From the NCBI RefSeq assembly GCF_003991905.1, contig NZ_RSCL01000011.1, positions 130,984-194,983 of the forward strand: DNA of 64,000 nucleotides, given 5' to 3'. The translations under genes and the position numbers were made by a program. This document shows, piece by piece, positions 42,503 to 64,000 of this stretch; the stretch's first letter is position 1; each line of letters opens with the position of its first letter. A model generated the notes under the pieces. That model was not told the DNA's origin, ran no database searches, and was given only the letters and a program-made list of their open reading frames with translations. This DNA is from Dulcicalothrix desertica PCC 7102 (GTDB lineage: Bacteria; Cyanobacteriota; Cyanobacteriia; Cyanobacteriales; Nostocaceae).

Positions 42503-45500
42503 ATGAAAAATATTGAATGTTTTTATCCGCTTTCGCCAATGCAGCAAGGCATTCTTTTTCACAGTCTTTATGCTTCTAATCCAGGGATGTATTGCGATGA
42601 ATTCAGTTGTAATATTCAGGGGAATCTTAATCCCTTAATATTTCAGCAAGCTTGGCAACAGTTAGTAGAACATCACCCTATTTTACGAACTTCTTTTGTT
42701 TGGGAAGGTTTGAAAGAGCCTACTCAGGTTGTACATAACCAAGTAAAGTTGCCAATCGAACAACACGATTGGCGCCTAATAACGAAGCTTGAACAGCAAA
42801 AACGTATACAAGCTTTTCAAAATGCGGAGCAACAGGGTTTTACACTTTCTCAAGCTCCTTTAATGCATTTAACGCTTATTCGGTTGGCTGATACAGATTA
42901 CCTGTTTATCTGGCGCCGTCACCATTTGTTGTTAGATGGCTGGTCTGCATCTCTACTTCTGGATGAAGTTTTTAAATTGTATCAGGCTTTGAATGAAGGT
43001 AAGGATTTTCACTTCAAACAACCTCGTGCTTACCGCGATTATATCGCTTGGCTGCAACAACAAGATTTAGTTGCTGCTGAAACGTTCTGGCGCCAGCGCT
43101 TGCAAGGTTTTACTGCTCCCACTTCTTTGACAGTACAAAAGCCTAAGTGCAATTCCAGTCAAGATAAAGACTATACACAACAGCAGTTGCAGCTATCAAC
43201 GGCAGAAACAGCAGCTTTACAGTCTTGGACTAAACAGCAACATTTGACATTGAGTACTGTAATGCATGGCGCCTGGGCTATTCTTCTCAGTCGCTACAGT
43301 GGGGAGAAGGATGTGCTTTTTGGGTCTGTTGTATCTGGTAGAGGCGCCTTGGCTGGGTCTGAGTCAATGGTGGGAGTGTTGATAAATACTCTGCCGATGC
43401 GAGTTTACATTAATCCAAAAGAAGAACTTTTACAGTGGTTAAAACAGTTGCAAATACAGCAAAATGAAACTCGTTGCTTTGAGTGCTGTCCTTTAGTCGA
43501 AATTCAACAGTGGAGCGATGTATCTGTTGCACCGCTATTTGAAAACATATTTAACTTTCAAAATTACCCCATAGGTTTTTCTCAAACCCCACAAGTCGGT
43601 TTAAATATTTCTGATATTCGTACTTGTATACACCCCCATTATCCCCTCACCGCATCGGTGAAGGTAGATTCAGAGTTATTACTAGAGATTTGTTATAATT
43701 GCGGCTACTTTGAACAAAGTACGATAAATAAAATGCTAGGACATTTTCGTACTTTGCTATTAAGTATGATTGTTAATCAGCAGCAGCATTTAGAAGATTT
43801 GCCGTTATTGACTGAGGCAGAGTGTCATCAACAATTGGTGGAGTGGAATAGTACTAAAGTTGATTACCCTCAAGTATGTATTCATCAGCTATTTCAAGCG
43901 CAGGTAGAGAAAACACCTGATAAGGTAGCAGTAGTATTTGAGCAGGAGCAATTAACTTATCGAGAACTGAATGCAAGAGCAAACCAATTAGCCCACTATT
44001 TACAAGCTTTAGGTGTAGGAGCAGAGGTACTTGTAGGTATTTGCATTGAGCGCTCCCTTGACATGATAGTCGCGCTGCTAGGTATTCTTAAAGCAGGTGG
44101 TGTATATGTACCGCTTGACCCTGCTTATCCGCACGCACGCCTAGCTTTCATGTTAGAAGATGCTCAAGTGTCGGTGCTGCTTACTCAACAAAACTTACTT
44201 GCAAATTTACCGAAACATCAAGCGAAATTAGTATGCTTAGATACTGAATGGGAGAAAATAGTTCAAGAAAATACTTGCAACCCTATCCACTGCACCACTA
44301 CAGAAAACCTAGCTTATGTAATCTACACTTCCGGTTCTACTGGCAAACCCAAAGGAGTGCAAATTCCCCACGGTGCTGTAGTTAATTTCTTAACTTCCAT
44401 GCGCCAAACTCCAGGGATAACCCAAGAAGATACGTTGCTCTCAGTAACCACATTATCTTTTGACATTGCTGCACTAGAACTATATTTACCACTAATTGTC
44501 GGCGCCCGTTTGGTTATAGTTAGTCGTGAAGACACCATTGATGGAACTAAGCTACTAAAAAAATTAACTTCTTCTAGCGTTACAGTTATGCAAGCTACAC
44601 CTGCAACCTGGCGAATGCTGTTAGCTGCTGGGTGGCAAACAGGTGGACAATTGAATAGACAATTAAAAATTCTTTGCGGTGGTGAAGCTCTTGACTCTTG
44701 CCTTGCTCAACAGTTGCTGGAACGTTCAAGCGAAGTGTGGAATTTATATGGTCCAACAGAAACTACGATTTGGTCAGTTGTACAAAAGGTATCACAAAAG
44801 TTAGAGGAGGGCGTTATCTCAATTGGTCGTCCCATTGCTAACACACAATTATATATTCTCGACCAACACCACCAGTTAGTACCTGTAGGAGTTATGGGTG
44901 AATTGCATATTGGGGGTGCTGGGGTCGCTCGTGGTTATTTAAATCAACCGGAACTTACCGCACAGAAGTTTATTCCTCACCCTTTGCAAAAAGATTCAAG
45001 TTCGCTCTGGTACAAAACTGGTGATTTAGCGCGCTATCTACCGGATGGAACCGTTGAGTTTTTAGGACGAATTGACAATCAAGTCAAACTCCGAGGTTTC
45101 CGTATAGAACTAGGAGAGATTGAAACTTTACTCAACCAGCATCCAGCAGTTAATAACAGTGTTGTGATAGTGCGAGAGGATGAACCTGGCCATCAGCTTT
45201 TGGTAGCATATGTAGTATTTAATTTAAGTGAATCAAATCAATTACCAGAAATTACCCAACTGCGGCGCCATCTCCAGAATAAACTACCTAGTTATATGGT
45301 GCCATCAGTCTTTGTGCAACTGGAAACACTACCCATAACACCGAATGGTAAATTAGACCGTCGTGCTTTGCCTAAACCCAACAGTAGCAACTTACATCTA
45401 GAAGGGCTACAAAATACTTTTGTTGCACCACGTCATCTAGTGGAAGAATTATTAGCAGGAATTTGGCTTCAAGTTCTAAATGTTCCACAAGTTGGTATTT

Positions 45501-47086
45501 ATGACAACTTTTTTGAATTAGGTGGACATTCGCTGCTAGCTACTCAGGTGGTTTCACGAGTTCGCAAAACCTTCGATATAGATTTACCGTTACAATGTTT
45601 GTTTGAGTCATCAACTGTAGCTGCACTAGCCACAGTTATTAATAGCTCAATCAAACAGGAAATTCCTTCGATTAAGTGTGTTGAGCGTGATTATTATTTA
45701 CCGCTATCATTTGCTCAAACTAGACTATGGTTGTTAGAGCAAATAAACCAAAGCAGCTTAAATTACAATGAAATTTTCGCTGTGCAGCTTATTGGCTTAT
45801 TAGATATAGATGTTTTAGAGCAGAGCATTAATGAAATAATCAGGCGCCATGAATTATTACGTACTAGCTTCTCGGTAGTGGATGGGCAACCATTTCAGTT
45901 TATTACCCCAGATGTAACTGTAAAAGTACTAGTAGTAGATCGGCAAGCAGAAATACAGCAACTAATCGATGAAGAATCTCTACGTAGCTTTGACTTAGCT
46001 AAAGCACCACTGTTGCGCTGCGTTATAATGCGCGTTTCAGAACAGGAACATATACTTTTGTTCACTATCCACCATATTGTCTCCGATGCTTGGTCAATAG
46101 GTGTGTTCGTGCGGGAGTTTGCAGCACTGTATACAGCTTTTTTAGACAAAAAACCTTCTCCACTACCAGAATTACCCATCCAATATGCAGATTTTGCAGT
46201 GTGGCAACGTCAATGGTTACAAGGTGAGACACTAGAAACACTATTAACTTACTGGAAAAAGCAATTAGGTAATAATCTTCCTATATTACAATTACCGACC
46301 GCGCGTCCCCGCACAGAAATTAAAACCAACCGAGGTGCTTCTCAAACCTTTGTCATTCCTTCTCATTTATCCCAAGCGCTGCAAACCCTTTCGCGTCAAG
46401 AAGGTGTCACTTTATTTATGACTTTGTTGGCTAGTTTTCAGGTATTACTACAACGTTATACTAATCAGGATGACATTGTTGTTGGTACTGATATTGCCAA
46501 CCGTAATCGGGCTGAATTAGAACCATTAATTGGCTTTTTTGTCAACTTACTAGTATTACGTACCTACCTTGGTGAAAATCCCAGTTTTCGAGAGTTGCTT
46601 AAAAGAGTACGTTCTTGTACATTAGAAGCATATGCTCATCAAGATTTGCCTTTTGACCAATTAGTTAAAGCTTTGCAGCCTGAGCGAAATTTGAGCAATA
46701 TACCACCATTATTTCAGGTCTTATTTGTGCTGCAAAATGCTCCAATGCCAGCTTTGGAATTGCCAGGACTAACCTTAAATGTATTAGAAGTAGAAAACAA
46801 AATTGCTAGGTTTGATTTAGCTTTATTTCTCACCGAAACAGAACAAGGAATCGTCGGAAAGTGGAAATACAATGCCGACCTTTTTGATTTTGCTATAATT
46901 GCGCGCATGACTAATCATTTTCAAACGCTACTCAACAATGTTGTAGTGCAACCCAATGCTCGGATAAATACTTTAGAAATGTTTACTGAAGCTGAGAAAA
47001 AAGAACAAAATATGCAACGAAGAGAGCGTCAAACCTTTAAGAGGGAAAAGTTTATTAGTATTGTGCCTAAAACAATTGATTTATAG
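42503..47086 (+). CDS. NRPS: C(DCL)-A(Gly)-PCP-C, hydroxylase domain apparently lost
   Basis: A 1527-aa protein. It begins YPLSPMQQGILFHSLY, the type of C domain that follows an E domain (DCL), with HHLLLDG intact. The A domain code reads D-I-L-Q-L-G-L-I-W, the glycine signature. The PCP has GGHSLLATQ. A second C domain (about 1070-1490) has HHIVSDA (Gly to Ala). The tail FTEAEKKEQNMQ...KFISIVPKTIDL is the same linker that in the protein at 54912 (LTEAEKRKQIMA...KKFMQVKPKAVKL) leads into a TauD-type hydroxylase, but here it ends at a stop codon. A dispersed hairpin repeat lies 8 nt after that stop. It starts 38 nt after the PKS gene with AAGGGA upstream. Confidence 0.9.
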   Translation: MKNIECFYPLSPMQQGILFHSLYASNPGMYCDEFSCNIQGNLNPLIFQQAWQQLVEHHPILRTSFVWEGLKEPTQVVHNQVKLPIEQHDWRLITKLEQQKRIQAFQNAEQQGFTLSQAPLMHLTLIRLADTDYLFIWRRHHLLLDGWSASLLLDEVFKLYQALNEGKDFHFKQPRAYRDYIAWLQQQDLVAAETFWRQRLQGFTAPTSLTVQKPKCNSSQDKDYTQQQLQLSTAETAALQSWTKQQHLTLSTVMHGAWAILLSRYSGEKDVLFGSVVSGRGALAGSESMVGVLINTLPMRVYINPKEELLQWLKQLQIQQNETRCFECCPLVEIQQWSDVSVAPLFENIFNFQNYPIGFSQTPQVGLNISDIRTCIHPHYPLTASVKVDSELLLEICYNCGYFEQSTINKMLGHFRTLLLSMIVNQQQHLEDLPLLTEAECHQQLVEWNSTKVDYPQVCIHQLFQAQVEKTPDKVAVVFEQEQLTYRELNARANQLAHYLQALGVGAEVLVGICIERSLDMIVALLGILKAGGVYVPLDPAYPHARLAFMLEDAQVSVLLTQQNLLANLPKHQAKLVCLDTEWEKIVQENTCNPIHCTTTENLAYVIYTSGSTGKPKGVQIPHGAVVNFLTSMRQTPGITQEDTLLSVTTLSFDIAALELYLPLIVGARLVIVSREDTIDGTKLLKKLTSSSVTVMQATPATWRMLLAAGWQTGGQLNRQLKILCGGEALDSCLAQQLLERSSEVWNLYGPTETTIWSVVQKVSQKLEEGVISIGRPIANTQLYILDQHHQLVPVGVMGELHIGGAGVARGYLNQPELTAQKFIPHPLQKDSSSLWYKTGDLARYLPDGTVEFLGRIDNQVKLRGFRIELGEIETLLNQHPAVNNSVVIVREDEPGHQLLVAYVVFNLSESNQLPEITQLRRHLQNKLPSYMVPSVFVQLETLPITPNGKLDRRALPKPNSSNLHLEGLQNTFVAPRHLVEELLAGIWLQVLNVPQVGIYDNFFELGGHSLLATQVVSRVRKTFDIDLPLQCLFESSTVAALATVINSSIKQEIPSIKCVERDYYLPLSFAQTRLWLLEQINQSSLNYNEIFAVQLIGLLDIDVLEQSINEIIRRHELLRTSFSVVDGQPFQFITPDVTVKVLVVDRQAEIQQLIDEESLRSFDLAKAPLLRCVIMRVSEQEHILLFTIHHIVSDAWSIGVFVREFAALYTAFLDKKPSPLPELPIQYADFAVWQRQWLQGETLETLLTYWKKQLGNNLPILQLPTARPRTEIKTNRGASQTFVIPSHLSQALQTLSRQEGVTLFMTLLASFQVLLQRYTNQDDIVVGTDIANRNRAELEPLIGFFVNLLVLRTYLGENPSFRELLKRVRSCTLEAYAHQDLPFDQLVKALQPERNLSNIPPLFQVLFVLQNAPMPALELPGLTLNVLEVENKIARFDLALFLTETEQGIVGKWKYNADLFDFAIIARMTNHFQTLLNNVVVQPNARINTLEMFTEAEKKEQNMQRRERQTFKREKFISIVPKTIDL

Positions 47087-47093
47087 TTAAATA

Positions 47094-47121
47094 ACGGGCA
47101 GGGATGCCCGTTCCACAAGAG
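47094..47121 (+). repeat. Dispersed hairpin repeat, copy 2, inside the NRPS operon
   Basis: CGGGCA (47095-47100), loop GGGA, TGCCCG (47105-47110), then TTCCACAAGA: the same element as at 765-793. It occupies the 69-nt gap between two NRPS genes, right where a hydroxylase domain seems to be missing. Confidence 0.75.
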
Positions 47122-47155
47122 AGATGAAAATATTATATTATAAGGGAAAAAGTAT

Positions 47156-50100
47156 ATGACAATTACAACTTTCAGCGGTTTTCGCCTTTCCCCACATCAA
47201 AAACATCTTTGGTTGTTACAAAAGTCATCCTCAAATTGTATAACTCAAAGCCAGATTAGTATTGCAGGAAAGCTTAAACCAGAGGCTTTAAAATTTGCTT
47301 TAAAACAAATAGTCAGTCGTCATGATATTCTGAGAACAACGTTTCACTCTCTTCCAGGCATGAAAGTTCCGGTGATGGTTGTAGAGAATGAAAGTGTTTT
47401 TGCTTGGCGTGAGATTAATTTGAAAGAGTGTGTATTTATAGAAGCACAAGTTGAAACTATTTCTCAGGAAGAAAGATGTCATAAATTTGATTTTGAAAAG
47501 TCTCCTTTATTACGTGCAAGTTTGCTTAATCTATCAAATGAAAAGCATATTCTACTTTTGACTTTACCTGCATTTTGTGCTGATACCAAGACTCACCACA
47601 ATTTATTTACGGAAATGAGTAATTTATATAAAGCTTATTTAGACGACGAGCAACTAAATCAAACGGAAGTTGTACAATATATTCAATTTTCAGAATGGCA
47701 GAACCAATTACTTGAAGAACCACAAGCAGAATCTGGTAAAGATTATTGGAATCAGCTAGATTTCTCTAGTCTCAATTCTTTAACACTAAATTTTGTAGAT
47801 AAATATCATCAAACAGATAAGTTTTCAGTAGCATCTTTTAATTTAACTCTCCCTGCTTCTCTCACCCAAAAAATTAAACAACAGATACAAGATATTGATT
47901 TATTTTTACTTTCATGTTGGCAGGTGTTACTCTGGCGCCTGACGGGAAATACAGAGATGATTGTGGGTACTGTCTTTGATGGTAGAGAGTATGAAGAGTT
48001 AAATAATGCCTTGGGAGCATTTGCTAAAGTATTACCAATTTCCTGTTTGTTAACAGATAATTTAAGTTTTGAAGAAGTTTTAGAACAAGTAAATAAAGCT
48101 AATCAAGCAGTTTTAGAATGGCAAGATTATTTTGTTTGGGAAACAGATAAGGAACTAAAGTTTCCAGTAATTTTTGAGTTTGTTAACATTAACAATAATT
48201 ATAATTTAGATGATGTTTCTTTCTTAGTTGAGAAAATATGTAACCAAATTGAACCATTTAAACTTAAACTAACTTGTGTTGAGACAGAAGCTTGTTTAAA
48301 TTTGGAGTTTGATTATAATACTAACGTCTTTTCACTACAGGACATTCGGCGCCTAGCAGAACAATTTCAGACTCTGTTAACTAATATAGTTGAAAATTCA
48401 CAAATTATAATAAGTAAATTAAAAATTTTACCACAAAATCAGCTTGACGAACTACTTATTCACTTCAATCAAACCCATGTTGATTATCCACAAAACAAAT
48501 GTATTCATCAAATATTTGAGGAACAAGCAACTCGTACTCCAAACCAAATTGCTGTTGTTTTTGAAAACAAGCAATTAACCTATAAAGAACTAAACGCACG
48601 CGCGAATCAATTAGCTAGCTACCTACGAAAGTTAGGAGTACAAAAAGAAGTAGTAGTAGGAATTTGCGTTGAGCGTTCTTTAGATATGATTGTTAGTCTA
48701 TTAGGTATTCTCAAGGCAGGTGGAGCTTATTTAGCTTTAGACCCTAAATTACCAAAGGAGAACCTTGGTTTTCGCTTGCAGGATGCTGATGTATCTGTAC
48801 TGTTAACTCACGAGCATTTGTTAGATATTAATAGTGTTCCTAATTTAGTACAGGTAGTACATTTAGACACAGACTGGAACCTTATTGCTCACGAAAGCGA
48901 CGAGAATTTGACTTGCTTGGCTACTGCAAATAATTTAGCTTATGTACTTTTCACTTCTGGTTCTACGGGTAAGCCGAAAGGTGTAGCTATTGAGCATCGG
49001 CAATTGGTAAATTATTTAAATGCAATTACAGATAAACTACAGTTACCTAATAATGCTAGTTTTGCAACTGTATCAACATTTTCAGCCGACTTGGGCAACA
49101 CTGCAATTTTTCCTGCTTTATGCAGGGGTGGGTGTCTTCATATAATATCTTCTGAAAGAGCATCTGACCCAGAGGCACTAGCAGCATACTGTCAAAAGCA
49201 TCCTATCGACTGTCTAAAAATTGTCCCCTCTCACCTCGATGCCTTATTAGCATCTACTCACGCTCAATCTATTTTGCCGACTCAGCGCTTAATTTTGGGT
49301 GGTGATACTGCTAGTTGGAGTTTGATTGAGAAAATTCAGTCTTTGGCGCCGAACTGCTTAATATTTAACCATTACGGACCGACGGAAGCCACTGTGGGTG
49401 TTCTAACTTATGCAGTCAAGGATGTACAGACACAAACACCTACAGTACCTCTTGGGCGCCCGCTTGCTAACACTCAAGTTTACGTGCTGGACAAGCAGAT
49501 GCAGCCTGTACCTATAGGTGTAGCAGGAGAATTGTATATTGGTGGGTCTAATCTCGCTCGATGTTATCATAACCACCCTGAAGAAACAGCAGAAAAATTT
49601 ATCCCTAATATTTTTAGTAATGTACCGGGAGAACGTTTATACAAAACAGGTGATTTGGTTCGCTATATCAATGATGGAAATTTGGAATTTCTGGGGCGAA
49701 TTGACAACCAAGTTAAGATTCGCGGTTTTCGTATAGAACTTGGAGAGATTGAAGCAACGTTACTGCAACACCCCCAGGTACAAGAAGTTGTAGTTTTGAC
49801 GTGGGCAACAGAAAATAATGATAAACGTTTGGTTGCTTATGTAGTAACGCATCATTTACAAGTTGATTTGAAAGACGAGCTGCGTCGCTTTTTGATGGCA
49901 AAACTGCCTGAGTATATGATTCCCTCTGCTTTCGTAATCTTGAAAGCTTTACCACTAACACCAAATGGCAAGATAGACCGTCAAGCTTTACTGGCACTAG
50001 AAAAAACCACAGAATCGGAAAAAACTGTATTGCCTCCTCGTAATCCTATTGAAGAAGTATTAGCTGGGTTGTGGGCAACAATTTTGGGGTGTAAGCAGGT

Positions 50101-53100
50101 GAGCATCCATGACAATTTTTTTGAATTAGGCGGGCACTCGCTGTTAGCAACGCAGCTTATATCTAGACTAAGAGAAGCTTTTCAAATCGAAATACCGTTA
50201 CCTTGGTTGTTTGAAGCACCAGTACTCATTGATTTAGCAAAACGCATTCAAAGTGCGATGAGTGGGGGAATGGAATTAAAAGCTCCACCAATTGCGCGCG
50301 CTTCCCGAATTGGGGAGTTACCTTTGTCATTTGCTCAACAGCGACTATGGTTTCTCGATCAGTTAGAGCCAGGTAGCTCATTGTACAATCTTCCCAAGGC
50401 TGTTCGCCTAACTGGAAAGCTGAATGTAGCAGTTTTGTCTAGTTGCATCAACGAAATAATCAGGCGCCATGAAGTATTGCGAACCAAATTTGCCATTGCC
50501 GACGGACGACCAATACAGATAATTTCTCCATCTATAAATTTAGAATTACCAGTGGTGGATTTATGCCATCTTCCACCAACCGAACGTGAAGCTGAAACGA
50601 GGCGCCTTATACAAAAAGAAGCGCAACACGGATTTGACTTGACGCAAAGTCCATTGCTACGCGCAACATTACTGCAACTCGATCAAGATGATTATGTACT
50701 TTTGTTCACGTTACATCATATTGTCTCTGACGGTTGGTCTAATGGAGTGTTGATTCACGAAGTGGTAGCACTTTATCAAGCTTTCAGTAATGGGGTAAAT
50801 TCTCCGTTACCAGAATTACCTATTCAATACGCAGACTTTGCCCTTTGGCAACAACAGTGGCTACAAGGACAAGTTTTAGAAACTCAGCTTGCATACTGGC
50901 AGCAACAACTAGGTGGTACTCGCTCTGCCCTAGAGCTACCCACCGACCATCCGCGACCAGCAGTATCAACTTACACAGGCGCAACAAAGTCATTTATAGT
51001 GCCTAAAACACTTACTGATGCTCTGAAAGCCCTTTCCGTTCAAAAATCTGCAACACTTTTTATGACGCTGTTAGCAGCGTTCAAAGTGTTACTTTATCGC
51101 TATAGTGGGCAAGATGATATAGTTGTCGGCTCGCCGATTGCTAACCGCAACCACGCTCAAATAGAAGGGTTAATTGGTTTTTTTGTCAATACCCTGGTGT
51201 TGCGTACTAATTTAGCAGGCAACCCTAGCTTTAACTCACTGCTGCAACGGGTACGAGAAGTTGCTTTAGGAGCTTACACTTACCAAGACTTACCCTTTGA
51301 GCAATTAGTATCACTTCAACCGGAGCGGCTTTTGAGTCGAAACCCGCTATTCGATGTAATGTTCATTCTCCAGAATACGCCTTCTGAGCCACTACAGTTA
51401 CCAGGGCTAATTATCACCCCCTTAGAGGAGGAACGTCAAACGGCAACTTTTGATTTAACTCTTTGCATTTTGGAAACTGATACTGGGCTAACGGGTTCGC
51501 TAGAATACAGCACTGAGTTGTTCGATGGCGCCACTATTGAACGGATGCTAGGACATTTCAATGTTTTACTAGAGGGAATTGTCGCTAATCCTGACCAACG
51601 TATTTCAAACTTGCCTTTGTTAACCGAAAAGGAACAGCAGCAATTATTGATAGGAAATCAAAATGTTGCAGCATATCAAGAGCAGTGTGTTCACAAGTTG
51701 TTTGAAGCACAGGTAGAGCTTACCCCCGATGCTATTGCGGTAGTGTATGGGAATTCTCAGTTGACTTACCGAGAGTTAAATCAGCGTGCCAATAAAATCG
51801 CATCTTACCTGCAAAAACAAGGTGTGCAACCAGAGGTTTTAGTTGGCCTTTGCGTGGAACGTTCTCTAGATTTGTTAGTAGGACTGCTCGGAATTCTCAA
51901 AGCAGGTGCAGCTTATGTACCGTTAGACCCAAATTATCCTCAAGAACGGTTAGCGTATATGGTAGCAGATGCACAAATACCAATATTGCTGACACAATCA
52001 ACTGTGGCGCCATTACCATTTGATAATGCCCAAGTTATTTGTCTGGATACAGATTGGCAAGAAATTGACCGTGAAAGCCAGGAAAATATAAAAAGTATAA
52101 TTAATTTAACTAGCGAAGCAACACCCGACAATTTAGCTTACTTAATTTACACTTCTGGTTCTACTGGAACCCCAAAGGGTGTATTAATTTCCCACAGGTC
52201 TTTGGTAAATTTCGCTACAATGGCTGCTGTTGAATATGAGATTAAAGCCAGCGATAGAGTATTGCAATTTGCGTCTATCAGCTTTGATACGGCTGCGGAA
52301 GAAATCTTTCCTACCTTATTGCGGGGTGCAACTTTGGTACTGCGAACTGAAGAAATGTTAAATTCCGTATCTAATTTCTTACAACAGTGTTATCAACAGT
52401 CGGTGTCGGTATTAGATTTACCAACTGCCTTTTGGCATGAGATTGTCGCGGAATTATCTACACTAGGATTAATATTACCAGAATCTTTGCGATTGGTAAT
52501 TATTGGTGGGGAGAGAGCCAGTAGCGAGGGACTAGCAACTTGGCGACAGCAAGTAAATTCATCTATAAGGCTAGTAAACAGTTACGGGCCTACAGAAACA
52601 ACCGTTGTCGCCACAATGTGCGATATAGGGGAAGAAGCAGTAGACTTTGGGCAACAAATACCCATTGGATACCCAATACCAAATGTTCAAACTTTTGTAT
52701 TGGATAAATATTTGCAACCAGTTCCTATTGGTGTCAGAGGTGAACTGTATATTGGTGGAGTTGGTGTAGCGCGCGGCTATCTCAACCAACCAGATTTAAC
52801 AGCCGAGAAATTTATTCCCAATCCTTTTAGTAAAGATGTTAATAAAAATGCGTCTCGCTTGTATAAAACAGCAGACTTGGTGCGTTATCGACCGGATGGC
52901 AACCTAGAATTTCTCGGTCGAATTGACCGTCAAGTCAAAATACGTGGTTTCCGTATCGAACTCTTAGAAATTGAAACGATATTAACTCAACACCCAGAAG
53001 TAAAAGCGGCTGTTGTCTTAGCACCAAAAGATGAACGTGGCAAAGAACGCTTAGTGGCTTATATTGTGCCTAATTCCTTTTATGAGGAAGCTGACTTAGA

Positions 53101-54901
53101 AATTAAGGATAAACTGCGTCGCTGGGTGAAAGAAAAGTTACCAGAGTATATGGCGCCTACAATCTTTATATTGCTTAATGCTATACCGCTCACAGCCAAC
53201 GGTAAAATAGATATGCAAGCACTACCAGCTTACGAACAGGAATCAGTTTTCGTTCCCCCGCAAACGACCATTGAAAAACAACTAACTCAAATTTGGGCTG
53301 AAGTACTTGGACTGCAACGAGTCGGTGTTAACGACAACTTTTTTGAGTTGGGTGGAGATTCTATTCTGAGTCTGCAAGTTATTTCAAAAGCGAACCAAGC
53401 AGGGCTGCATTTTACACCCAAACAGTTATTTCAATACCAGACCATCAGCCAATTAGCAGCAGTAGTGAGTACAACCAAGCTTATCCAAGCTGAACAAGGC
53501 CCAGTCAATGGCTCTTTCCCCCTAACTCCCATTCAGCACTGGTTCTTTGAACAAGATTTCGCCGACCCCCATCACTGGAATCAAGCGGTGCTGCTGGAAG
53601 TTCCCCAAAATATCAACCCAGTAATATTAGAGACAGCGGTGCAGTCTTTAATTGAGCATCATGACATTCTCCGAACTTGTTTCATCAAAGAAGCATCTGG
53701 TTGGCGCCCGATAATTGATAATTATACAAAAGTATCAATTACCAACTTAGATGTCTCTTCAATGTCCCCAGATGAACAAGCATCTGCGATGACGCAGTTG
53801 CAAGCTAGTTTCAACCTATCAGAAGCTCCACTGCTGCAAGTTGCCCTAATTAATTTAGGAAATGTACAGCGCTTGTTCTTCACCATTCACCACTTACTAA
53901 TAGATGGAGTTTCTTGGCGAATTTTGTTGGCAGACCTCCAGCTTGTCTATGAGCAACTGATTCAAGGCAAAGCTATAAAATTGCCGCCAAAAACAACCTC
54001 ATTTAAACAATGGTCGTACCGGATGCAAGAATATGCCCAATCGTCAGCGCTAAAACAAGAGTTAAATTACTGGTTAACATCGCTACGTCAACCCGTGGCG
54101 CCCTTAAGAGTAGATTATTTAGGAGGACAAAATACAGCAGCAAACGCGCGCACCGTGGAAGTTGCTTTGAGTGTAGAAGAAACTCAAGCCTTACTGCAAC
54201 AGGTTTCTGCTGCTTACCGAACTCAAATCAATGATGTGTTGTTAACACCGCTAGTACAGGCATTTAGCCAGTGGACGGGAGAAGAATCGCTACTTTTTGA
54301 TTTAGAGGGACACGGACGAGAAGAACTATTTACAGATATCGACTTATCGCGAACAGTGGGTTGGTTCACTTCTGTGTTTCCCGTGCGGCTTGATTTTGAT
54401 AAAGCTAGCTATCCTGGAGATGCTTTAAAGATGGTAAAAGAACAGTTACGTGCTATTCCTAATCGGGGTATAGGTTATGGTATTTTAAAATACTTAAGTA
54501 ATGTGGAAATTGCTACGTTATTGCGGTCATTGCCCCAAGCTGAGGTGAGCTTTAATTACTTGGGTCAGTTCGACCAAGTGTTAACTGAATCTTCATTGTT
54601 TAAGTTAGCACGGGAGTCGAGCGGTGCCTCTCAAAGTTTGCGAAACAATCGCTCGTATTTGATAGAGATTTATGGTGGCATTGAGTCGGGTAGGCTGCAA
54701 TTATCTTGGACTTACAGTCAAAGTCTATATTGCCAATCCACTATTGAAGGACTAGCACAGGGATTTATCGAAGCTTTGCGAGCGCTAATTGCTCACTGCC
54801 TATCTGCTGAAACGGGTGACTTTATTCCTTCAGACTTTCCTCTAGTGGAGTTGAATCAGGAAGAACTTGATGGTGCGTTCGAGCAAATCTCATTTAACTA
54901 A
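47156..54901 (+). CDS. NRPS: I-A(Asp)-PCP-C-A(basic?)-PCP-E
   Basis: A 2581-aa protein. The N-terminal 430 residues are a condensation-superfamily domain (FRLSPHQKHLWLL) in which the HHxxxDG motif is replaced by LPAFCADT; this fits the 'interface' domains of beta-hydroxyaspartate siderophore synthetases. A1 code D-L-T-K-I-G-H-V-G is the aspartate signature. PCP1 is followed by a normal C domain (HHIVSDG). A2 code reads D-T-E-D-I-G-S-V-V; Glu239 and Asp278 suggest a cationic side chain such as Lys or Orn, with low confidence. PCP2 (GGDSILSLQ) and an intact E domain (HHLLIDGVSW, VGWFT) end the protein. The ribosome-binding site is AAGGG. It matches the DCL-type C domain opening the next protein, 10 nt downstream. 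Confidence 0.9.
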   Translation: MTITTFSGFRLSPHQKHLWLLQKSSSNCITQSQISIAGKLKPEALKFALKQIVSRHDILRTTFHSLPGMKVPVMVVENESVFAWREINLKECVFIEAQVETISQEERCHKFDFEKSPLLRASLLNLSNEKHILLLTLPAFCADTKTHHNLFTEMSNLYKAYLDDEQLNQTEVVQYIQFSEWQNQLLEEPQAESGKDYWNQLDFSSLNSLTLNFVDKYHQTDKFSVASFNLTLPASLTQKIKQQIQDIDLFLLSCWQVLLWRLTGNTEMIVGTVFDGREYEELNNALGAFAKVLPISCLLTDNLSFEEVLEQVNKANQAVLEWQDYFVWETDKELKFPVIFEFVNINNNYNLDDVSFLVEKICNQIEPFKLKLTCVETEACLNLEFDYNTNVFSLQDIRRLAEQFQTLLTNIVENSQIIISKLKILPQNQLDELLIHFNQTHVDYPQNKCIHQIFEEQATRTPNQIAVVFENKQLTYKELNARANQLASYLRKLGVQKEVVVGICVERSLDMIVSLLGILKAGGAYLALDPKLPKENLGFRLQDADVSVLLTHEHLLDINSVPNLVQVVHLDTDWNLIAHESDENLTCLATANNLAYVLFTSGSTGKPKGVAIEHRQLVNYLNAITDKLQLPNNASFATVSTFSADLGNTAIFPALCRGGCLHIISSERASDPEALAAYCQKHPIDCLKIVPSHLDALLASTHAQSILPTQRLILGGDTASWSLIEKIQSLAPNCLIFNHYGPTEATVGVLTYAVKDVQTQTPTVPLGRPLANTQVYVLDKQMQPVPIGVAGELYIGGSNLARCYHNHPEETAEKFIPNIFSNVPGERLYKTGDLVRYINDGNLEFLGRIDNQVKIRGFRIELGEIEATLLQHPQVQEVVVLTWATENNDKRLVAYVVTHHLQVDLKDELRRFLMAKLPEYMIPSAFVILKALPLTPNGKIDRQALLALEKTTESEKTVLPPRNPIEEVLAGLWATILGCKQVSIHDNFFELGGHSLLATQLISRLREAFQIEIPLPWLFEAPVLIDLAKRIQSAMSGGMELKAPPIARASRIGELPLSFAQQRLWFLDQLEPGSSLYNLPKAVRLTGKLNVAVLSSCINEIIRRHEVLRTKFAIADGRPIQIISPSINLELPVVDLCHLPPTEREAETRRLIQKEAQHGFDLTQSPLLRATLLQLDQDDYVLLFTLHHIVSDGWSNGVLIHEVVALYQAFSNGVNSPLPELPIQYADFALWQQQWLQGQVLETQLAYWQQQLGGTRSALELPTDHPRPAVSTYTGATKSFIVPKTLTDALKALSVQKSATLFMTLLAAFKVLLYRYSGQDDIVVGSPIANRNHAQIEGLIGFFVNTLVLRTNLAGNPSFNSLLQRVREVALGAYTYQDLPFEQLVSLQPERLLSRNPLFDVMFILQNTPSEPLQLPGLIITPLEEERQTATFDLTLCILETDTGLTGSLEYSTELFDGATIERMLGHFNVLLEGIVANPDQRISNLPLLTEKEQQQLLIGNQNVAAYQEQCVHKLFEAQVELTPDAIAVVYGNSQLTYRELNQRANKIASYLQKQGVQPEVLVGLCVERSLDLLVGLLGILKAGAAYVPLDPNYPQERLAYMVADAQIPILLTQSTVAPLPFDNAQVICLDTDWQEIDRESQENIKSIINLTSEATPDNLAYLIYTSGSTGTPKGVLISHRSLVNFATMAAVEYEIKASDRVLQFASISFDTAAEEIFPTLLRGATLVLRTEEMLNSVSNFLQQCYQQSVSVLDLPTAFWHEIVAELSTLGLILPESLRLVIIGGERASSEGLATWRQQVNSSIRLVNSYGPTETTVVATMCDIGEEAVDFGQQIPIGYPIPNVQTFVLDKYLQPVPIGVRGELYIGGVGVARGYLNQPDLTAEKFIPNPFSKDVNKNASRLYKTADLVRYRPDGNLEFLGRIDRQVKIRGFRIELLEIETILTQHPEVKAAVVLAPKDERGKERLVAYIVPNSFYEEADLEIKDKLRRWVKEKLPEYMAPTIFILLNAIPLTANGKIDMQALPAYEQESVFVPPQTTIEKQLTQIWAEVLGLQRVGVNDNFFELGGDSILSLQVISKANQAGLHFTPKQLFQYQTISQLAAVVSTTKLIQAEQGPVNGSFPLTPIQHWFFEQDFADPHHWNQAVLLEVPQNINPVILETAVQSLIEHHDILRTCFIKEASGWRPIIDNYTKVSITNLDVSSMSPDEQASAMTQLQASFNLSEAPLLQVALINLGNVQRLFFTIHHLLIDGVSWRILLADLQLVYEQLIQGKAIKLPPKTTSFKQWSYRMQEYAQSSALKQELNYWLTSLRQPVAPLRVDYLGGQNTAANARTVEVALSVEETQALLQQVSAAYRTQINDVLLTPLVQAFSQWTGEESLLFDLEGHGREELFTDIDLSRTVGWFTSVFPVRLDFDKASYPGDALKMVKEQLRAIPNRGIGYGILKYLSNVEIATLLRSLPQAEVSFNYLGQFDQVLTESSLFKLARESSGASQSLRNNRSYLIEIYGGIESGRLQLSWTYSQSLYCQSTIEGLAQGFIEALRALIAHCLSAETGDFIPSDFPLVELNQEELDGAFEQISFN

Positions 54902-54911: not shown

Positions 54912-57900
54912 ATGAAGATGAAGCACAAGAATATCGAGGATGTTTATCCTTTATCTCCTATGCAACAGGGGATGCTTTTCCACAGTCTTTATGCTCCTGA
55001 AGATGGTGTATATATTGAGCAAATGAGTTTCAATATCAATGGAACTTTGAATGTGGATGCGTTTGTTCGAGCTTGGCAGCAGGTTGTGGAGCTTCATCCC
55101 ATTTTGCGAACGGCGTTTGTGTGGGAAAAATTAGAAAAACCTATTCAAGTTGTAGGTCGGCAGGTGACGTTACCTTGGGAGGAGCATGATTTTAGGGGTG
55201 TCTCTCCTTTGGAGCAGCAAAAACAATTGGAAGTTTTACAATTAAACGACCGTTCGCGCGGTTTTGATATTTCTAAGGCGCCACTAATGCGCTTCACGCT
55301 AATCCGCCTACAAGAAACAACTTATCATTTTATTTGGAGTCATCACCATCTACTGCTCGATGGATGGTCTGTACCTTTACTATTAAAAGAAGTAATTGCT
55401 TATTATAAATCTTTTTGCCAAGGTGAAAATCTCTACTTAGAAAAACCCCGTCCTTACCGAGATTATATTGAGTGGCTACAGCAGCAAAATGTTACTCAGG
55501 CAGAAGTATTTTGGCGCTCAATACTTAAGGGTTTCACAACTCCTACCTCACTAAGGAAAAACTTAGTTTCTCAACGTTTGTCTATCCAGGAAAAAAGTTA
55601 CTGTGAGCAAGAGCGTAAGTTGTCTGTCAGCAGCACCGTTGCTCTCCAAACTTTGGTGCATCAGCATCAAGTAACATTAAATACCTTTATTCAGGGAGCA
55701 GTGGCTCTGCTGTTAAGTCGCTACAGTGGTGAGGAAGATGTGGTATTTGGAGCTACGGTTTCTGGTCGTCCCCCCACTTTAGTCAAAGCTGAGTCGATGG
55801 TAGGGCTGTTTATTAATACATTGCCAGTTAGAATCAAAGTTAACCCTAAAGGATCTGTGGTTCCTTGGTTGCGCTCACTCCAAACCCAACAAGTGCAAGC
55901 GCGCGAGTATGAGTATACTCCGCTTGTGGAAATACAAGGATGGAGTGAAGTTCCTAGAGGTTTGCCTTTATTCGAGAGTATCGTGGTGTTTGAGAATTAC
56001 CCAATCGATGCTTCCTTGCAGTCACCTGCTATCGGTTTAGAAATTAGTAATGTTTGTAGCTTTGATAAAACAAATTATCCTTTAACCATAAGTGTAGTTC
56101 CTGGTGAACAGTTGTTGCTTAAGATTGCCTACACTAATGGCGATGGCTTTGACACTGATATTATTGAACGAATGCTAGGGCATCTTGTTACATTGCTCGA
56201 AGGTATAATTGCCAATCCTCATCAACGCTTAGAAGAATTGTCAATTTTGACACCAGCAGAACGCAATTATTTGTTAGTAGAACTCAATCAAAGTTCAAAG
56301 TTTGATACTCAGCAGTGCATTCATCATCTGTTTGAGAGACAAGTAGTAATGGCGCCTGATGCAGTGGCTGTAGTATTCGACACAAAGTCATTAACTTACG
56401 ATCAACTTAACCAACAGGCAAATCAATTAGCGCATCACCTAATATCCCTTGGTGTGAAACCAGAGATGCTAGTTGGCATCTGTGTAGAACGTTCCTTAGA
56501 AATGGTAATAGGTATTTTAGGCATCTTAAAAGCAGGTGGTGCTTATGTACCCCTAGACCCAGATTACCCACAGGAACGCTTGGCTTTTATGATTGCAGAT
56601 GCAAATGTGTCGATACTATTGACTCAAGAGCAAATAAGACACTTACTACCAAATCATGAAGCGCAAATCGTTTGTTTGGATGCAGACTGGAATGTAATTG
56701 CCCAGCAACCACCGTCAAATCCCGTTAATAGCAGATTACAACCGGAAAATCTCGCTTATGTAATTTACACTTCCGGTTCCACAGGACAATCTAAGGGGGT
56801 GATGATTGAGCATCGCAGTTTGGTTAATGCTTATTTTGCTTGGGAACAAACTTACCAACTGCGAGCAACCAGAACTTGTCACCTCCAGATGGCAAGCTTC
56901 TCCTTCGATGTATTTTCTGGTGATTTGGTAAGGGCTTTGTGTTCCGGCGGTAAATTAGTTCTGTCAAAACGAGAATTTTTGCTATCTCCAAAAGAATTAT
57001 ATAATTTGATGGTTTTGCAACAGGTTGACTGTGCTGAGTTTGTACCCGCAGTGTTGCGAAATCTAGTAGAGTACTTAGAACAAAGTCAACTTAGGCTTGA
57101 TTTTATGAAACTACTAGTGTGCGGTTCAGATGTTTGGTATGGGCAAGAATATCAAAAATTCCGTAGCTTTTGTGGTTCTCAAACTCGTTTGATTAACTCT
57201 TTCGGCACCACCGAAGCGACTATCGATAGTTCTTGGTTTGAAGCTACAACACACTCAGAGTTAGCGAGTGAACAATTAGTACCGATTGGACGGGCATTTC
57301 TTAACACCCAACTATATATTTTAGATGTAAATTTGCAGCCCGTACCTGTGGGAGTTGCTGGAGAAATTTATATTGGTGGCGCCTCCTTAGCGCGCGGGTA
57401 TCTCAACCGTCCTGAGTTAACGGCGCAAAAGTTCGTTCCCAACCCATATAGTCAGGAAAAAGGGCGCCTATACAAAACTGGAGACTTAGCTCGTTATTTA
57501 CCTGATGGGAATATTGAATTTATTAGACGCACTGACTACCAAGTTAAAATTCGCGGTTTCCGAATTGAGATTGCTGAAATTGAGACGGCACTGGTTCAAC
57601 ATCAAGTAGTGCGAGAGGTTGTCGTCTTAGCTAGAGAGGATGTACCGGGTGACAAACGCTTAGTAGCTTATATCGTTACTGATACACCTATAACATCTCC
57701 TGAATTACGCCACTTCCTCAAACAAAAATTACCAGAGTACATGATACCAGGTGCCTTTGTGTTTGTTGAAGCCCTACCGCTTACACCTAACGGCAAGGTA
57801 GACCGAAAAGCCTTACCAGCACCCGACATAGCAACAATCGAACAGCATAATTTTAAAGTACCGCGTACTATTTTAGAAGAGATATTGGTGGGGATTTGGA

Positions 57901-60512
57901 GCGATATTCTCGGTGTTAAACAAGTTAGTATTGATGATAACTTCTTTGATTTAGGTGGGCACTCCCTCATTGCCACCCAGCTTATTTCCCGTATTCGCAA
58001 AGTTTACCGAGTGGAAGTCCCTCTGCGCTACTTGTTTGAAGAACCAACCGTAGCAGGACTAGGCGCCAAAATTCAGGCATTTTCTCAACAAGAGGAATTG
58101 CAAGCGACGCCTATACTACCTGTTGCACGGTTAACGGATATTGAATTACCTCTGTCCTTCGCCCAACAGCGACTATGGTTTCTCCAGCAGTTACACCTAG
58201 ATAATAGCTATAACATCTTCAACGCTCTACACATGAAGGGTTCCCTTAACATAGCAGCCTTGGAGACAAGTCTTAACGAAATTATTAAACGTCATGAAGC
58301 TTTACGCACGTCGTTTATCGCTATAGATGGGTATCCTGTACAGGTGATTGCCTCCAAGTTGCAACTAACTATACCAATAATAGATTTGCAGACACTGCCG
58401 GAAGCAGAACAGAAAGCTCAGGTACTGAGACTGATAGCAAAGGAGTCTGAGCAACCTTTTGACTTAGCTTGCAGTCCACTCGCGCGCGTTACTCTTTTAA
58501 AGTTAAACTCTGCAGAACACATACTGCTGTGTACCATGCATCACATCATCTCTGATGGCTGGTCAATGGGAGTGCTTGTCGGGGAACTGGTAAATTTTTA
58601 CAAAGCTTCAGTTAACAAAAAACCTCTATCGCTACCCGAACTACCTTTACAATACGCAGATTTTGCGGTATGGCAAAGACAGTGGCTACAATCACATGTG
58701 TTAGCTCTTCAGTTAGCGTACTGGAAGCAACAACTAGGTGGAATATCAGTACTACAACTTCCCTACTCTCAACCACGACCTGAAAAAGGAACCAATCGTT
58801 GCATCATCCATAGTTTCAAGTTATCTGTCCAACTATCGCAAGCACTTCAAACCCTTAGCCGCGAAGCAAATGCAACTTTATTTATAACAATGCTTGCTGC
58901 TTTCAAAACCCTACTATACCGCTATAGTAAGCAAGATGACATTGTTGTGGGTACTGATGTTGCCAATCGTAACCAAGCAGAAACTGAAGGGTTAATTGGT
59001 TTTTTTGTCAATATTTTAGTTTTACGCACCTACCTTGGTGGTTGTCCCAGTTTTCGAGAACTGTTACAAAGGGTGCGCGAAGTCGCTTTAGGAGCTTATG
59101 CTCATCAAGATTTGCCCTTCGAGAAGTTAGTAGAGGAACTACAACCAGAGCGACATTTGAACCACACACCTTTATTTCAGGTGTTATTCGTTATGGATAA
59201 CGTTCCAAAACAGAATTTAGAACTGCCAGACCTAACAATAACACCCCTAGAAGTCAACTATGGAACGGCAAAGTTTGATTTAGCATTATTTGTTGCAAAA
59301 ACAGAACAAGAAATTGTTGGTAGCTGGCATTACAACGCTGACTTGTTCGATGCAGCAGCAATAACACGCATGACAGGACACTTTGAAACGTTACTAAATA
59401 ATATCGTTGCCCAGCCAGATACCCGTATCAACACTTTAGAAATACTTACTGAAGCAGAAAAGAGAAAACAGATTATGGCAGAAACTAAACAAGAAGAGAG
59501 TAAACTTAAAAAATTTATGCAGGTTAAACCCAAAGCTGTAAAATTACCACAAGGAGAATTAATTAAAACATGTTTCCTCGATCCAGATGAAAGCTTACCC
59601 TTAGTAATAGAGCCTGCTATTAATGATATTGACATTATCAATTGGGCTAAAAACAATAGGCTATTCATAGAAACTAAGTTACAACATCACGGAGCTATTC
59701 TCTTTCGTAACTGCAATATTGATTCAGTATTAACGTTTGAAAACTTAGCTCAAGCTATTTGTCCAAATTTATTCGCTGAATATGGTGATTTACCGCGCGA
59801 GGGAGTAAGTGATAAAGTTTACGGTTCCACACCTTACCCCGCAGACCAAGCTATTCTTTTCCACAATGAAAGTTCTCATTTACATCAGTTTCCTCTCAAA
59901 ATATGGTTTTTTTGCGTACAACCAGCAGCGCGCGGAGGAGAAACACCAATTGTAGATTGTCGCAAAGCTTATCAATTACTCAACCCCAAGTTACGAGAAA
60001 AACTTGAGAAACAGCAATTAATGTATGTTCGTAACTACATTGAAGGTTTAGACGTAAGCTGGCAAGAATTTTTCCGCACCACTGACAAAGCAGTAGTTGA
60101 AAATTATTGTAAAAAAGCTAGAATTGAATTTGAATGGCTAGCAAACAATAGCTTAAAAACTCGTCAAATCCGACAAGCTGTTACAAAACACCCCCATACA
60201 AGAGAAACAGTATTTTTTAATCAGCTTCAGTTACACCATATATCATGCTTAAACTCAACAGTTCGGGAATCTTTGTTGTCAATATTTGGTGAAAATAACT
60301 TACCCCGTAATGTCTATTACAGTGATGGTTCTCCTATTGAAGATGCAGTAATGTCAGAAATCAATGAAGTTTATCAACAAGCTACAATTAGTTTTCCGTG
60401 GCAGAAAGGAGACGTGCTAATGCTTGACAACATGTTAACGGCACACGGTCGCTTTCCTTATGAAGGACAAAGAAAAATTGTTGTAGCGATGGGAGAAATA
60501 CATCAGTTGTAA
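54912..60512 (+). CDS. NRPS: C(DCL)-A(Orn)-PCP-C-TauD-type beta-hydroxylase
   Basis: About 1866 aa from ATG 54912, which follows AAGGAAG (an open frame reaches 54867 inside the previous gene). The DCL C domain has HHLLLDG. The A code D-V-G-E-V-G-S-I-D is one residue from the classical ornithine signature (DVGEIGSID). The PCP has GGHSLIATQ. A C domain with HHIISDG follows, then a linker and a Fe(II)/2-oxoglutarate oxygenase domain (about 1545-1866) with ligands His1651 and Glu1653 in HNESSH and His1845 in TAHGRF, plus RGGETPIVDCRKAY. C-terminally fused hydroxylases of this type make L-threo beta-hydroxyaspartate in other siderophore lines (IbetaH-Asp class). It likely acts on Asp carried by the next protein, whose N-terminus is an I domain. 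Confidence 0.9.
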   Translation: MKMKHKNIEDVYPLSPMQQGMLFHSLYAPEDGVYIEQMSFNINGTLNVDAFVRAWQQVVELHPILRTAFVWEKLEKPIQVVGRQVTLPWEEHDFRGVSPLEQQKQLEVLQLNDRSRGFDISKAPLMRFTLIRLQETTYHFIWSHHHLLLDGWSVPLLLKEVIAYYKSFCQGENLYLEKPRPYRDYIEWLQQQNVTQAEVFWRSILKGFTTPTSLRKNLVSQRLSIQEKSYCEQERKLSVSSTVALQTLVHQHQVTLNTFIQGAVALLLSRYSGEEDVVFGATVSGRPPTLVKAESMVGLFINTLPVRIKVNPKGSVVPWLRSLQTQQVQAREYEYTPLVEIQGWSEVPRGLPLFESIVVFENYPIDASLQSPAIGLEISNVCSFDKTNYPLTISVVPGEQLLLKIAYTNGDGFDTDIIERMLGHLVTLLEGIIANPHQRLEELSILTPAERNYLLVELNQSSKFDTQQCIHHLFERQVVMAPDAVAVVFDTKSLTYDQLNQQANQLAHHLISLGVKPEMLVGICVERSLEMVIGILGILKAGGAYVPLDPDYPQERLAFMIADANVSILLTQEQIRHLLPNHEAQIVCLDADWNVIAQQPPSNPVNSRLQPENLAYVIYTSGSTGQSKGVMIEHRSLVNAYFAWEQTYQLRATRTCHLQMASFSFDVFSGDLVRALCSGGKLVLSKREFLLSPKELYNLMVLQQVDCAEFVPAVLRNLVEYLEQSQLRLDFMKLLVCGSDVWYGQEYQKFRSFCGSQTRLINSFGTTEATIDSSWFEATTHSELASEQLVPIGRAFLNTQLYILDVNLQPVPVGVAGEIYIGGASLARGYLNRPELTAQKFVPNPYSQEKGRLYKTGDLARYLPDGNIEFIRRTDYQVKIRGFRIEIAEIETALVQHQVVREVVVLAREDVPGDKRLVAYIVTDTPITSPELRHFLKQKLPEYMIPGAFVFVEALPLTPNGKVDRKALPAPDIATIEQHNFKVPRTILEEILVGIWSDILGVKQVSIDDNFFDLGGHSLIATQLISRIRKVYRVEVPLRYLFEEPTVAGLGAKIQAFSQQEELQATPILPVARLTDIELPLSFAQQRLWFLQQLHLDNSYNIFNALHMKGSLNIAALETSLNEIIKRHEALRTSFIAIDGYPVQVIASKLQLTIPIIDLQTLPEAEQKAQVLRLIAKESEQPFDLACSPLARVTLLKLNSAEHILLCTMHHIISDGWSMGVLVGELVNFYKASVNKKPLSLPELPLQYADFAVWQRQWLQSHVLALQLAYWKQQLGGISVLQLPYSQPRPEKGTNRCIIHSFKLSVQLSQALQTLSREANATLFITMLAAFKTLLYRYSKQDDIVVGTDVANRNQAETEGLIGFFVNILVLRTYLGGCPSFRELLQRVREVALGAYAHQDLPFEKLVEELQPERHLNHTPLFQVLFVMDNVPKQNLELPDLTITPLEVNYGTAKFDLALFVAKTEQEIVGSWHYNADLFDAAAITRMTGHFETLLNNIVAQPDTRINTLEILTEAEKRKQIMAETKQEESKLKKFMQVKPKAVKLPQGELIKTCFLDPDESLPLVIEPAINDIDIINWAKNNRLFIETKLQHHGAILFRNCNIDSVLTFENLAQAICPNLFAEYGDLPREGVSDKVYGSTPYPADQAILFHNESSHLHQFPLKIWFFCVQPAARGGETPIVDCRKAYQLLNPKLREKLEKQQLMYVRNYIEGLDVSWQEFFRTTDKAVVENYCKKARIEFEWLANNSLKTRQIRQAVTKHPHTRETVFFNQLQLHHISCLNSTVRESLLSIFGENNLPRNVYYSDGSPIEDAVMSEINEVYQQATISFPWQKGDVLMLDNMLTAHGRFPYEGQRKIVVAMGEIHQL

Positions 60513-63600: not shown

Positions 63601-64000
63601 AAAGTAGGTATTCACGATAACTTCTTTGAATTGGGAGGACATTCTTTACTGATTACCCAGTTGCTTGCTCAAGTAAGGAAAGCATTCCAGATAAATTTGT
63701 CTATAAGCTCTTTATTTGAGGTTCCTACTGTCGCAGGATTAGCTGCAAAAATTGAGAATCAGCAAACACCCTCTAGTAATATCCTTGCAACAGTTATCGC
63801 TGATGCTGTTTTAGACCCGACAATTTGCTCAAATGGGTTCACCTTTAACCATAATATTTTAGAGAATGTTGTTTTATTAACTGGCGCCACAGGTTTTCTG
63901 GGAGCTTTTTTACTTAATGAACTTTTACAACGAACGAGAGCGGATATTTACTGCTTAGTGCGCGCGAACAATATTGAATATGGAAAGCAGAAAATTCAAA
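60625..64000 (+). CDS. NRPS: I-A(Asp)-PCP-thioester reductase (cut by window end)
   Basis: The open frame from ATG 60625 runs off the right edge (1125 codons seen). The N-terminal 430 residues mirror the protein at 47156: FRLSPQQQRLW and LPSLCADSWT in place of HHxxxDG, an interface-type domain. The A domain code D-L-T-K-V-G-H-V-G is again the aspartate signature. The PCP has GGHSLL (Ser about 1007). From about residue 1075, NVVLLTGATGFLGAFLLNEL then LQRTRADIYCLVRA is the start of a reductase (R/Red) domain with its Rossmann TGxxGxxG. This suggests NAD(P)H-dependent release of the chain as an aldehyde or alcohol instead of hydrolysis. No strong ribosome-binding site is seen, and 112 nt separate it from the previous gene. 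Confidence 0.9.
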   Translation, partial: MQNQTLEGFRLSPQQQRLWSSQQNGYIYCSQLAILITGNLSEKLLKSALQKVINRHEIFRTTFHHRPGVKIPIQVIADISTQTWRNINLSKQKEQELKLNELFQEEKSLISNLENNTLRLFLITLSENQHILLITLPSLCADSWTLKNLLHEIYQAYVSEETGLLEPIQYIQFSEWQNELLEEDAEAGKNYWLNQNLKTQQPLILPFESKIDQTIPFTQKLFSVDLSDYLEKIDAAISKSNMKLSDFLFTCFHILISRLTTQSNIIINTLFLGRKYEEVYETMGLLAQSLPIVSSIDKEFKFSEVLYQISSQISQADKYQEYFTISGGADSSISFDFEELPEEYHTSEVSLSLYKHYVCLDCCKLKLSCLHKPKSLVAQFHYNDNIYTDENIQRLAEQFHTLVNSAASNLETTVGKLEILTVRERHKLLVEFNNTQISYPQDKCIHQLFEQQVEQTPNNIAVVFENQHLTYTELNAKANQLASYLKRLGVEKENIVGLCVERSLDIIIGILAILKAGAAYLPLEPILPKANLAFRLQDVQASILLTQQSLVEKLPADVAQIICLDTSREIIAQEPFDNLQTNVQPENLVYALFTSGSTGKPKAVAVEHRQLVNYLYAIVEKLNLHPGASFATISSFAADLGNTVIFPALYTGGCLHIISQERAADPQALADYFLFHPIDCLKIVPSHLATLMASSPTSSILPRQCLVLGGEASSWDLIDIIHQQAPNCQILNHYGPTETTVGVLTYHVNPTPSSSNISNLASKTVPLGKPLANAQVYILDNQLQPVPFGVAGELYIGGAPLTRGYLNRPELTFERFILNPFTSVLGEKLYKTGDLARYLTDGNIEFVGRIDNQVKIRGFRIELGEIETIFKQHQAIQEVVVLATQEAQRDKRLVAYIVTSSEFRRHNLHSTPINELLKELRNFGKQHLPEYMVPSAFVLLKTLPRTPNGKVDRQALPALVQTHLDLEAQYMAPRTSLEKQLASIWANLLGLEKVGIHDNFFELGGHSLLITQLLAQVRKAFQINLSISSLFEVPTVAGLAAKIENQQTPSSNILATVIADAVLDPTICSNGFTFNHNILENVVLLTGATGFLGAFLLNELLQRTRADIYCLVRANNIEYGKQKIQ

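Follow-up and report, generated by a model that had tools for sequence, protein, structure and literature searches.

A cyanochelin-like siderophore cluster of Dulcicalothrix desertica that has very probably lost one C-fused TauD beta-hydroxylase and kept its linker as a tail

In the genome of Dulcicalothrix desertica PCC 7102 (11.4 Mb) a nonribosomal peptide synthetase (NRPS) protein ends on a condensation (C) domain with a short tail, and the protein encoded next begins with an Interface domain followed by an Asp-type A domain, with no hydroxylase between the two proteins. Interface domains reportedly are C-like domains without the HHxxxDG motif which lie next to an Asp A domain and are paired with a TauD hydroxylase, IBH_Asp. 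The question raised by this junction is whether a beta-hydroxylase has been lost from it, as a first-pass annotation made from the sequence proposed, and, if so, what becomes of the Asp which is loaded there. The DNA analysed (hereafter the window) is a 64-kb stretch that forms part of contig C11. Its assembly line reads FAAL-ACP-C-A-T (31066), KS-AT-KR-T-E-like (36474), C-A-T-C-tail (42503), I-A-T-C-A-T-E (47156), C-A-T-C-TauD (54912), and I-A-T-R (60625), in which I stands for Interface and R for reductase domain. The labels I, E, R, and FAAL come from our own cuts of the window proteins together with the best BLAST match to those; Pfam, which backs the domain labels in the window proteins only, gives just the parent families. 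The features concerned are the following.

42503..47086, + strand: NRPS protein C-A-T-C-tail, TauD very probably lost (Pfam Condensation twice, AMP-binding, and PP-binding; domain map; C-domain tree)
45698..46987, + strand: last C domain of the 42503 protein, in the TauD-fused clade, with the motif HHIVSDA (Pfam Condensation at residues 1066-1501; tree; motif)
46988..47083, + strand: C-terminal tail, very probably the former C-TauD linker (score against the fused-linker profile; codon comparison with NIES-4105)
47087..47155, + strand: spacer 3' of the stop, occupied in relatives by about 320 TauD codons (no TauD remnant found)
47093..47114, + strand: dispersed hairpin repeat (genome copies of its 23-base core; spacer comparison)
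47156..54901, + strand: NRPS protein I-A(Asp)-T-C-A-T-E (domain map; Pfam gives Condensation for both I and E)
47156..48445, + strand: orphaned Interface domain (44 of 45 near-invariant positions kept)
48491..49990, + strand: Asp-type A domain, code DLTKIGHVG (code comparison)
54912..60512, + strand: NRPS protein C-A-T-C-TauD with the remaining hydroxylase (Pfam); the ORF opens at 54867 by a TTG start, the ATG at 54912 being the plausible start
59472..59561, + strand: intact C-TauD linker (domain map)
59562..60509, + strand: TauD-family hydroxylase domain, with no other close one found in the genome (PF02668, 150.5 bits; TauD tree)
60625..64000, + strand: second Interface protein, Interface-A(Asp-type)-T-reductase, which continues to 64941, beyond the window edge (Pfam Condensation, AMP-binding, PP-binding, and NAD_binding_4)
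24397..30418, - strand: MFS protein, periplasmic binding protein, sucrase/ferredoxin-like protein, and TonB-dependent receptor (Pfam)

The window has the FAAL-type start and the hybrid PKS/NRPS line of a cyanochelin-type cluster (an AMP-binding start, ACP, KS, AT, KR, Condensation, A, and PP domains), siderophore transport genes upstream of that line (TonB-dependent receptor, periplasmic binding protein, and MFS protein by Pfam), and a TauD-family hydroxylase at 59562-60509. A hydroxylase stands directly before the second Asp module and none before the first, which makes the cluster a less typical member of the cyanochelin type and leaves its kinship with that type unaffected.

The protein encoded from 42503 to 47086 (P0001, 1527 residues) ends in ...EAEKKEQNMQRRERQTFKREKFISIVPKTIDL followed by the stop. 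Its last C domain and tail were aligned by BLASTP with the 54912 protein (P0002) at 268 of 473 identical residues (57%), the alignment ending where the TauD domain of the latter begins. For scoring, 109 distinct C-TauD linkers, the window tail not among them, were made into a profile; the 32 residues of this tail scored 64.9 bits against it, which lies within the range of the linkers themselves (54.6-97.0). The tail of Calothrix NIES-4105 (G003), a genus-mate of the window strain, scored 62.4 bits, and the tails of two further relatives without TauD, LEGE 06147 and G285, scored 36.5 and 29.7 bits. As controls, 75 internal C-A linkers gave at most 11.0 bits and eight other C-terminal C ends at most 9.8 bits. 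Since the controls fall far below, the window tail is specifically a linker of the fused type, and both measures uphold the proposal that the end of the 42503 protein corresponds to the C-TauD linker of the 54912 protein. The profile replaced an earlier regular expression which had found 14 of 23 junction tails and none of six others, because the expression missed visible variants of the tail. A weaker version of the tail was detected by the profile at unfused C ends which adjoin TauD genes: of the 15 C ends located ahead of a TauD in a separate frame, 14 gave 4.3-25.6 bits and the frame-broken row of G106 gave -2.0, the tails of L181 and L163 having been left out of the scoring on account of frame breaks. 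A line at 8 bits misassigns two real junction tails (6.4 and 4.3), four internal C-A linkers (8.7-11.0), and one other C end (9.8), overlaps that affect the standalone-type tails and not the window tail. The concern that linker similarity might be common to unfused C domains is thus borne out in a weak sense, in that a related tail precedes standalone TauD genes; that tail scores much less, and ordinary C ends give next to no score.

What follows the tail in other genomes was surveyed in three ways. Scanning genome contigs for the pattern identified 31 loci, which overlap with the places counted below and were not added to the totals; TauD follows in 28 of these, the loci of NIES-4105 (L039) and LEGE 06147 (L065) stop at the tail, and the remaining one (L069) is an ordinary C-A junction that lacks the tail. 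Within the family, 217 genomes searched at E 1e-10 gave at least 73 tail places in at least 64 genomes. In the 68 that were fetched, the tail runs in frame into TauD at 65, TauD lies beside a broken frame at two (L163 and L181), and one near a contig end (L184) was not classed; the other five comprise a place with TauD in G005, the second places of the window genome and NIES-4105, also with TauD, and the first places of these two genomes, without it. Across the order, the tail was found in at least 62 of the 388 genomes searched (E 1e-8), with 46 new places, 44 of which lead into TauD (with a later frame break inside TauD in G454), while LEGE 06147 and G285 have one place each without. Family and order together, among at least 119 tail places found, 112 run in frame into TauD, two are broken, one was not classed, and four have no TauD, namely those of the window, Calothrix NIES-4105, LEGE 06147, and its relative G285. 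Orthologous clusters therefore showed the expected C-linker-TauD at this point almost throughout, the opposite of related clusters consistently keeping the linker without the enzyme, and the state of the window is shared with LEGE 06147 and G285. It should be noted that one related cluster (L196-L197, G106:C1) has several broken reading frames and is apparently decaying. It was also observed that all four TauD-less C domains (window 45698-46987, L039, L065, and G285) carry HHxxxDA in place of the usual HHxxxDG; with DA also present in no fewer than 20 of 113 TauD-fused C domains, the feature may be without significance.

The direction of change was addressed with a C-domain tree built without the tail, in quick IQ-TREE runs with SH-aLRT support only. 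The C domains of the window and NIES-4105 nest within the TauD-fused clade beside Spirirestis rafaelensis (L046), with support of 89 and 98 in two such trees. Spirirestis is the nearest TauD-bearing relative; its C-T-C-TauD is followed by I-A-T-C-A-T-E, a protein built as in the window. This position argues for the loss of one fused beta-hydroxylase ahead of the split between the window strain and NIES-4105, and together with the C-linker-TauD arrangement of the relatives it bears out the proposed loss, of which we are close to certain. The fewest changes among the fused and TauD-less rows of the tree number two, best read as two losses, and by its tree position the state of LEGE 06147 and G285 is probably a second, separate loss. 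A single origin of both was considered and is disfavoured by the grouping with TauD-bearing Spirirestis (98 in a quick run); forcing the four TauD-less rows together lowered the log-likelihood by 20.9 (AU p 0.085, no rejection at 0.05, for a group chosen after a tree had been seen). Both lineages retain a second fused C-TauD before an I-A-T-R protein, with C-A-T-C-TauD followed by I-A-T-R in LEGE 06147 and G285, and in the TauD tree the remaining enzymes of the window and LEGE 06147 fall in one clade of six rows (97). Clusters with two fused TauDs are found in G179 and G182.

No remnant of TauD was found around the stop, the best E values being 1.6 in the window stretch and 0.028 in NIES-4105. 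The hairpin reported after the stop is indeed a dispersed repeat: its 23-base core, at up to three mismatches, has 486 copies in the window genome and 119 in NIES-4105, and none for a reversed control. The family is thus about four times commoner in the window genome than in NIES-4105. The suggestion that the hairpin marks the deletion did not hold, since the NIES-4105 spacer contains a different inverted repeat at this site; nothing ties the hairpin to the deletion, and as its cause the repeat is unsupported.

Comparison of the tail codons between the window and NIES-4105 identified 10 codons with synonymous changes only and six with amino-acid changes among the 32, and seven and one, respectively, in the last 15. 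Random change would be expected to alter the amino acid in 11.5 codons (P 0.0006), and this codon pattern indicates that the tail is under purifying selection. A tail selected where no TauD follows, related tails beside standalone TauD genes, and a like motif on TauD N-termini together point to a possible docking role of the tail between the C domain and the Interface protein. Unfused C domains before a standalone TauD end in a K-rich, KLKxxKRKxI-like tail in the loci L043, L050, L054, L062, and L192 and in stretches of the genomes G001, G005, G019, G106, and G179, and many standalone TauDs have a similar motif at their N-terminus, as if the junction motif stood on both sides of the gene break; 14 of 23 N-terminal stretches of separate TauDs reach at least 8 bits against the linker profile, one of which (L181) is a frame-broken fused linker.

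The N-terminal domain of the 47156 protein gives a Condensation match with LPAFCAD where C domains have HHxxxDG, and the A domain behind it has the code DLTKIGHVG, which we take to mean Asp; both agree with the first-pass description of an Interface-type domain and an Asp A domain. The same code is common to the A domains behind the orphaned Interface domains of the window, NIES-4105, and LEGE 06147 and is found in 68 of 90 distinct A domains behind a TauD-preceded Interface domain, a set (G285 not included) in which 83 have DLTK-type codes and seven have others. A P..CAD site is present in 99 of 138 distinct N-terminal Interface domains, the search found no site in 27, and HHxxxDG was counted in none. 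TauD precedes 132 of the 138, fused in 111 and as a separate frame in 21, two of the latter (L163 and G454) being fused TauDs with a broken frame, so that 19 are standalone; here preceded refers to the previous mapped NRPS or TauD frame, with a gap of at most 300 bases in 110 of the 132 and of more than 1000 in seven. One further domain lies at a stretch edge, and five follow a C domain without TauD: those of the window, NIES-4105, LEGE 06147, G285, and another cluster of the window genome. Thinning at 95% identity left 134 domains and the same five. The second Interface domain of the window has its adjacent TauD, and the first does not. At L038 (G000:C42, 446-13618), in another NRPS cluster of the window genome, a protein ending in a C-tail stands immediately ahead of an Interface protein and no TauD of this kind separates them; the A code there is DATKIGEVG, and just upstream lie two genes, one distantly hydroxylase-like and one aminotransferase-like, which presumably resemble VioC/VioD.

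The orphaned Interface domain departs from one of 45 near-invariant positions and the second, paired one from six, the mean being 1.0 in 85 TauD-preceded domains. The window and NIES-4105 share 77% identity in the first Interface domain and 85% in the second, and the ratio of Interface to A-domain divergence for the first is 2.14, a value exceeded by 32 of 127 control pairs, which are not independent; LEGE 06147 and G285 are 65.8% identical in the Interface and 73.6% in the A domain. A relaxed Interface domain was not seen against these controls, in a weak test whose control ratios spread so widely (0.97-5.89) that mild relaxation is possible. The dN/dS of the first Interface domain (0.349) was the highest of the domains compared, ahead of KR (0.338), a C domain (0.322), and the second Interface domain (0.271).

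Four other explanations of the junction have to be weighed. That the window reflects an error of assembly or annotation, in favour of which nothing was found, is refuted for practical purposes by NIES-4105, a separate assembly in which the stop falls at the identical position (TAA, against TAG in the window) before a different spacer. That the tail-only state is ancestral, TauD having been gained by fusion in the relatives, is very improbable: the C domain of the window lies deep in the fused clade, so many separate gains at one position would be needed, and its tail scores in the fused range, even if C domains before standalone TauD genes bear a related tail and the tail as such may therefore be older than, or separate from, the fusion.

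There is rather more to be said for a first Asp that is incorporated unmodified, with the Interface domain acting only as a structural or docking spacer, which we hold to be unlikely but worth keeping in view. The junction has no TauD, a protein search of the window genome found no second close TauD (the next best match being 29% identical), and the first Interface domain has the dN/dS noted above. The genome of Spirirestis holds a single close TauD, and the 40 kb of it that were read contain a single Interface domain, which makes a product with one beta-OH-Asp possible. Against this stand the 44 near-invariant Interface residues kept out of 45, an Interface to A divergence within the controls, and the second fused TauD which the other TauD-less lineage likewise has. 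A hydroxylase encoded elsewhere in the genome might instead serve the first Asp, given that standalone TauDs serve 19 of the 138 Interface modules in other clusters, that further TauD-family genes lie on contigs C33, C8, and C42 of the window genome, and that NIES-4105 has a 42% identical standalone TauD (L193, frame from 6246, G003:C1:3126267-3127217) in a different NRPS-like locus; we regard this as improbable, as nothing close was found in the window genome and the genes on C33 and C42 score worse than E 1e-5 in the protein search.

Of the two outcomes which the first-pass annotation put forward, the conserved Interface domain favours service in trans over an unmodified Asp, and from the sequence evidence the likeliest course is that the one remaining TauD serves both Asp modules. 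Sequence, gene order, phylogeny, and selection underlie the history of the junction given above; action in trans, the role of the tail, and the identity of the product are what we infer from them. A cyanochelin-like lipopeptide siderophore cluster would once have had two C-fused TauDs, each ending a protein just ahead of one that starts with an Interface domain followed by an Asp-loading module. Of these TauDs the first, of about 320 residues, would have been lost at the linker end before the window strain and NIES-4105 split, leaving the C domain with the linker as a tail, and the Asp module with its Interface domain would have been retained. The TauD of the 54912 protein would then hydroxylate both carrier-bound Asp residues, that of its own next module and, in trans, that of the first, with the first Interface domain as the landing place that recruits it; the lost and the remaining enzyme being both of the fused type, the swap could have taken place with no change of stereochemistry. 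The retained tail would most likely help the C domain to pass the chain on to the Interface protein. Taken as a whole, this account seems to us moderately probable. A wider reading is more tentative: two lineages may have come separately to one shared TauD recruited in trans by an orphaned Interface domain, the leftover linker being a genuine docking tail which is retained for the sake of the contact that the C domain has to make with the Interface protein, and the junction tails and TauD N-terminal motif forming a general docking code. Natural relatives that have similar Asp modules with and without a TauD of their own allow hydroxylation across subunits and the role of the Interface domain to be asked about, and the tail is a candidate docking element open to testing. 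If service in trans is true, genome mining by hydroxylase count would under-predict beta-OH-Asp residues.

The literature searched, parts of which were available to us, holds no description of the loss of one hydroxylase, and the NIES-4105 case may have been mentioned earlier in Galica 2021 or Reitz 2019. As far as the available part of the report on cyanochelin B goes (PMC12628792), the cluster of Leptolyngbya NIES-3755 resembles that of the window in being a FAAL/PKS/NRPS siderophore cluster with two Asp modules, an NRPS-fused beta-hydroxylase before an Asp module, and a reductive end. The fused hydroxylase is described there before an Asp module without an epimerase and a standalone one before an Asp module with an epimerase, and the S beta-carbon is attributed to fused and the R beta-carbon to standalone enzymes (PMC12628792, citing Reitz 2019). 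The CyanoBH_Asp1 and CyanoBH_Asp2 groups, by their description in the part of PMC12971057 available, are beta-hydroxylases of cyanobacterial cyanochelin-type clusters like that of the window. The window departs from the pairing of Interface domain and IBH_Asp (Reitz 2019) in that its first Interface domain has no hydroxylase of its own, and, whereas the standalone hydroxylase before the second Asp module gives cyanochelin B one enzyme per Asp (PMC12628792, in the part available), one of the Asp modules in the window is without.
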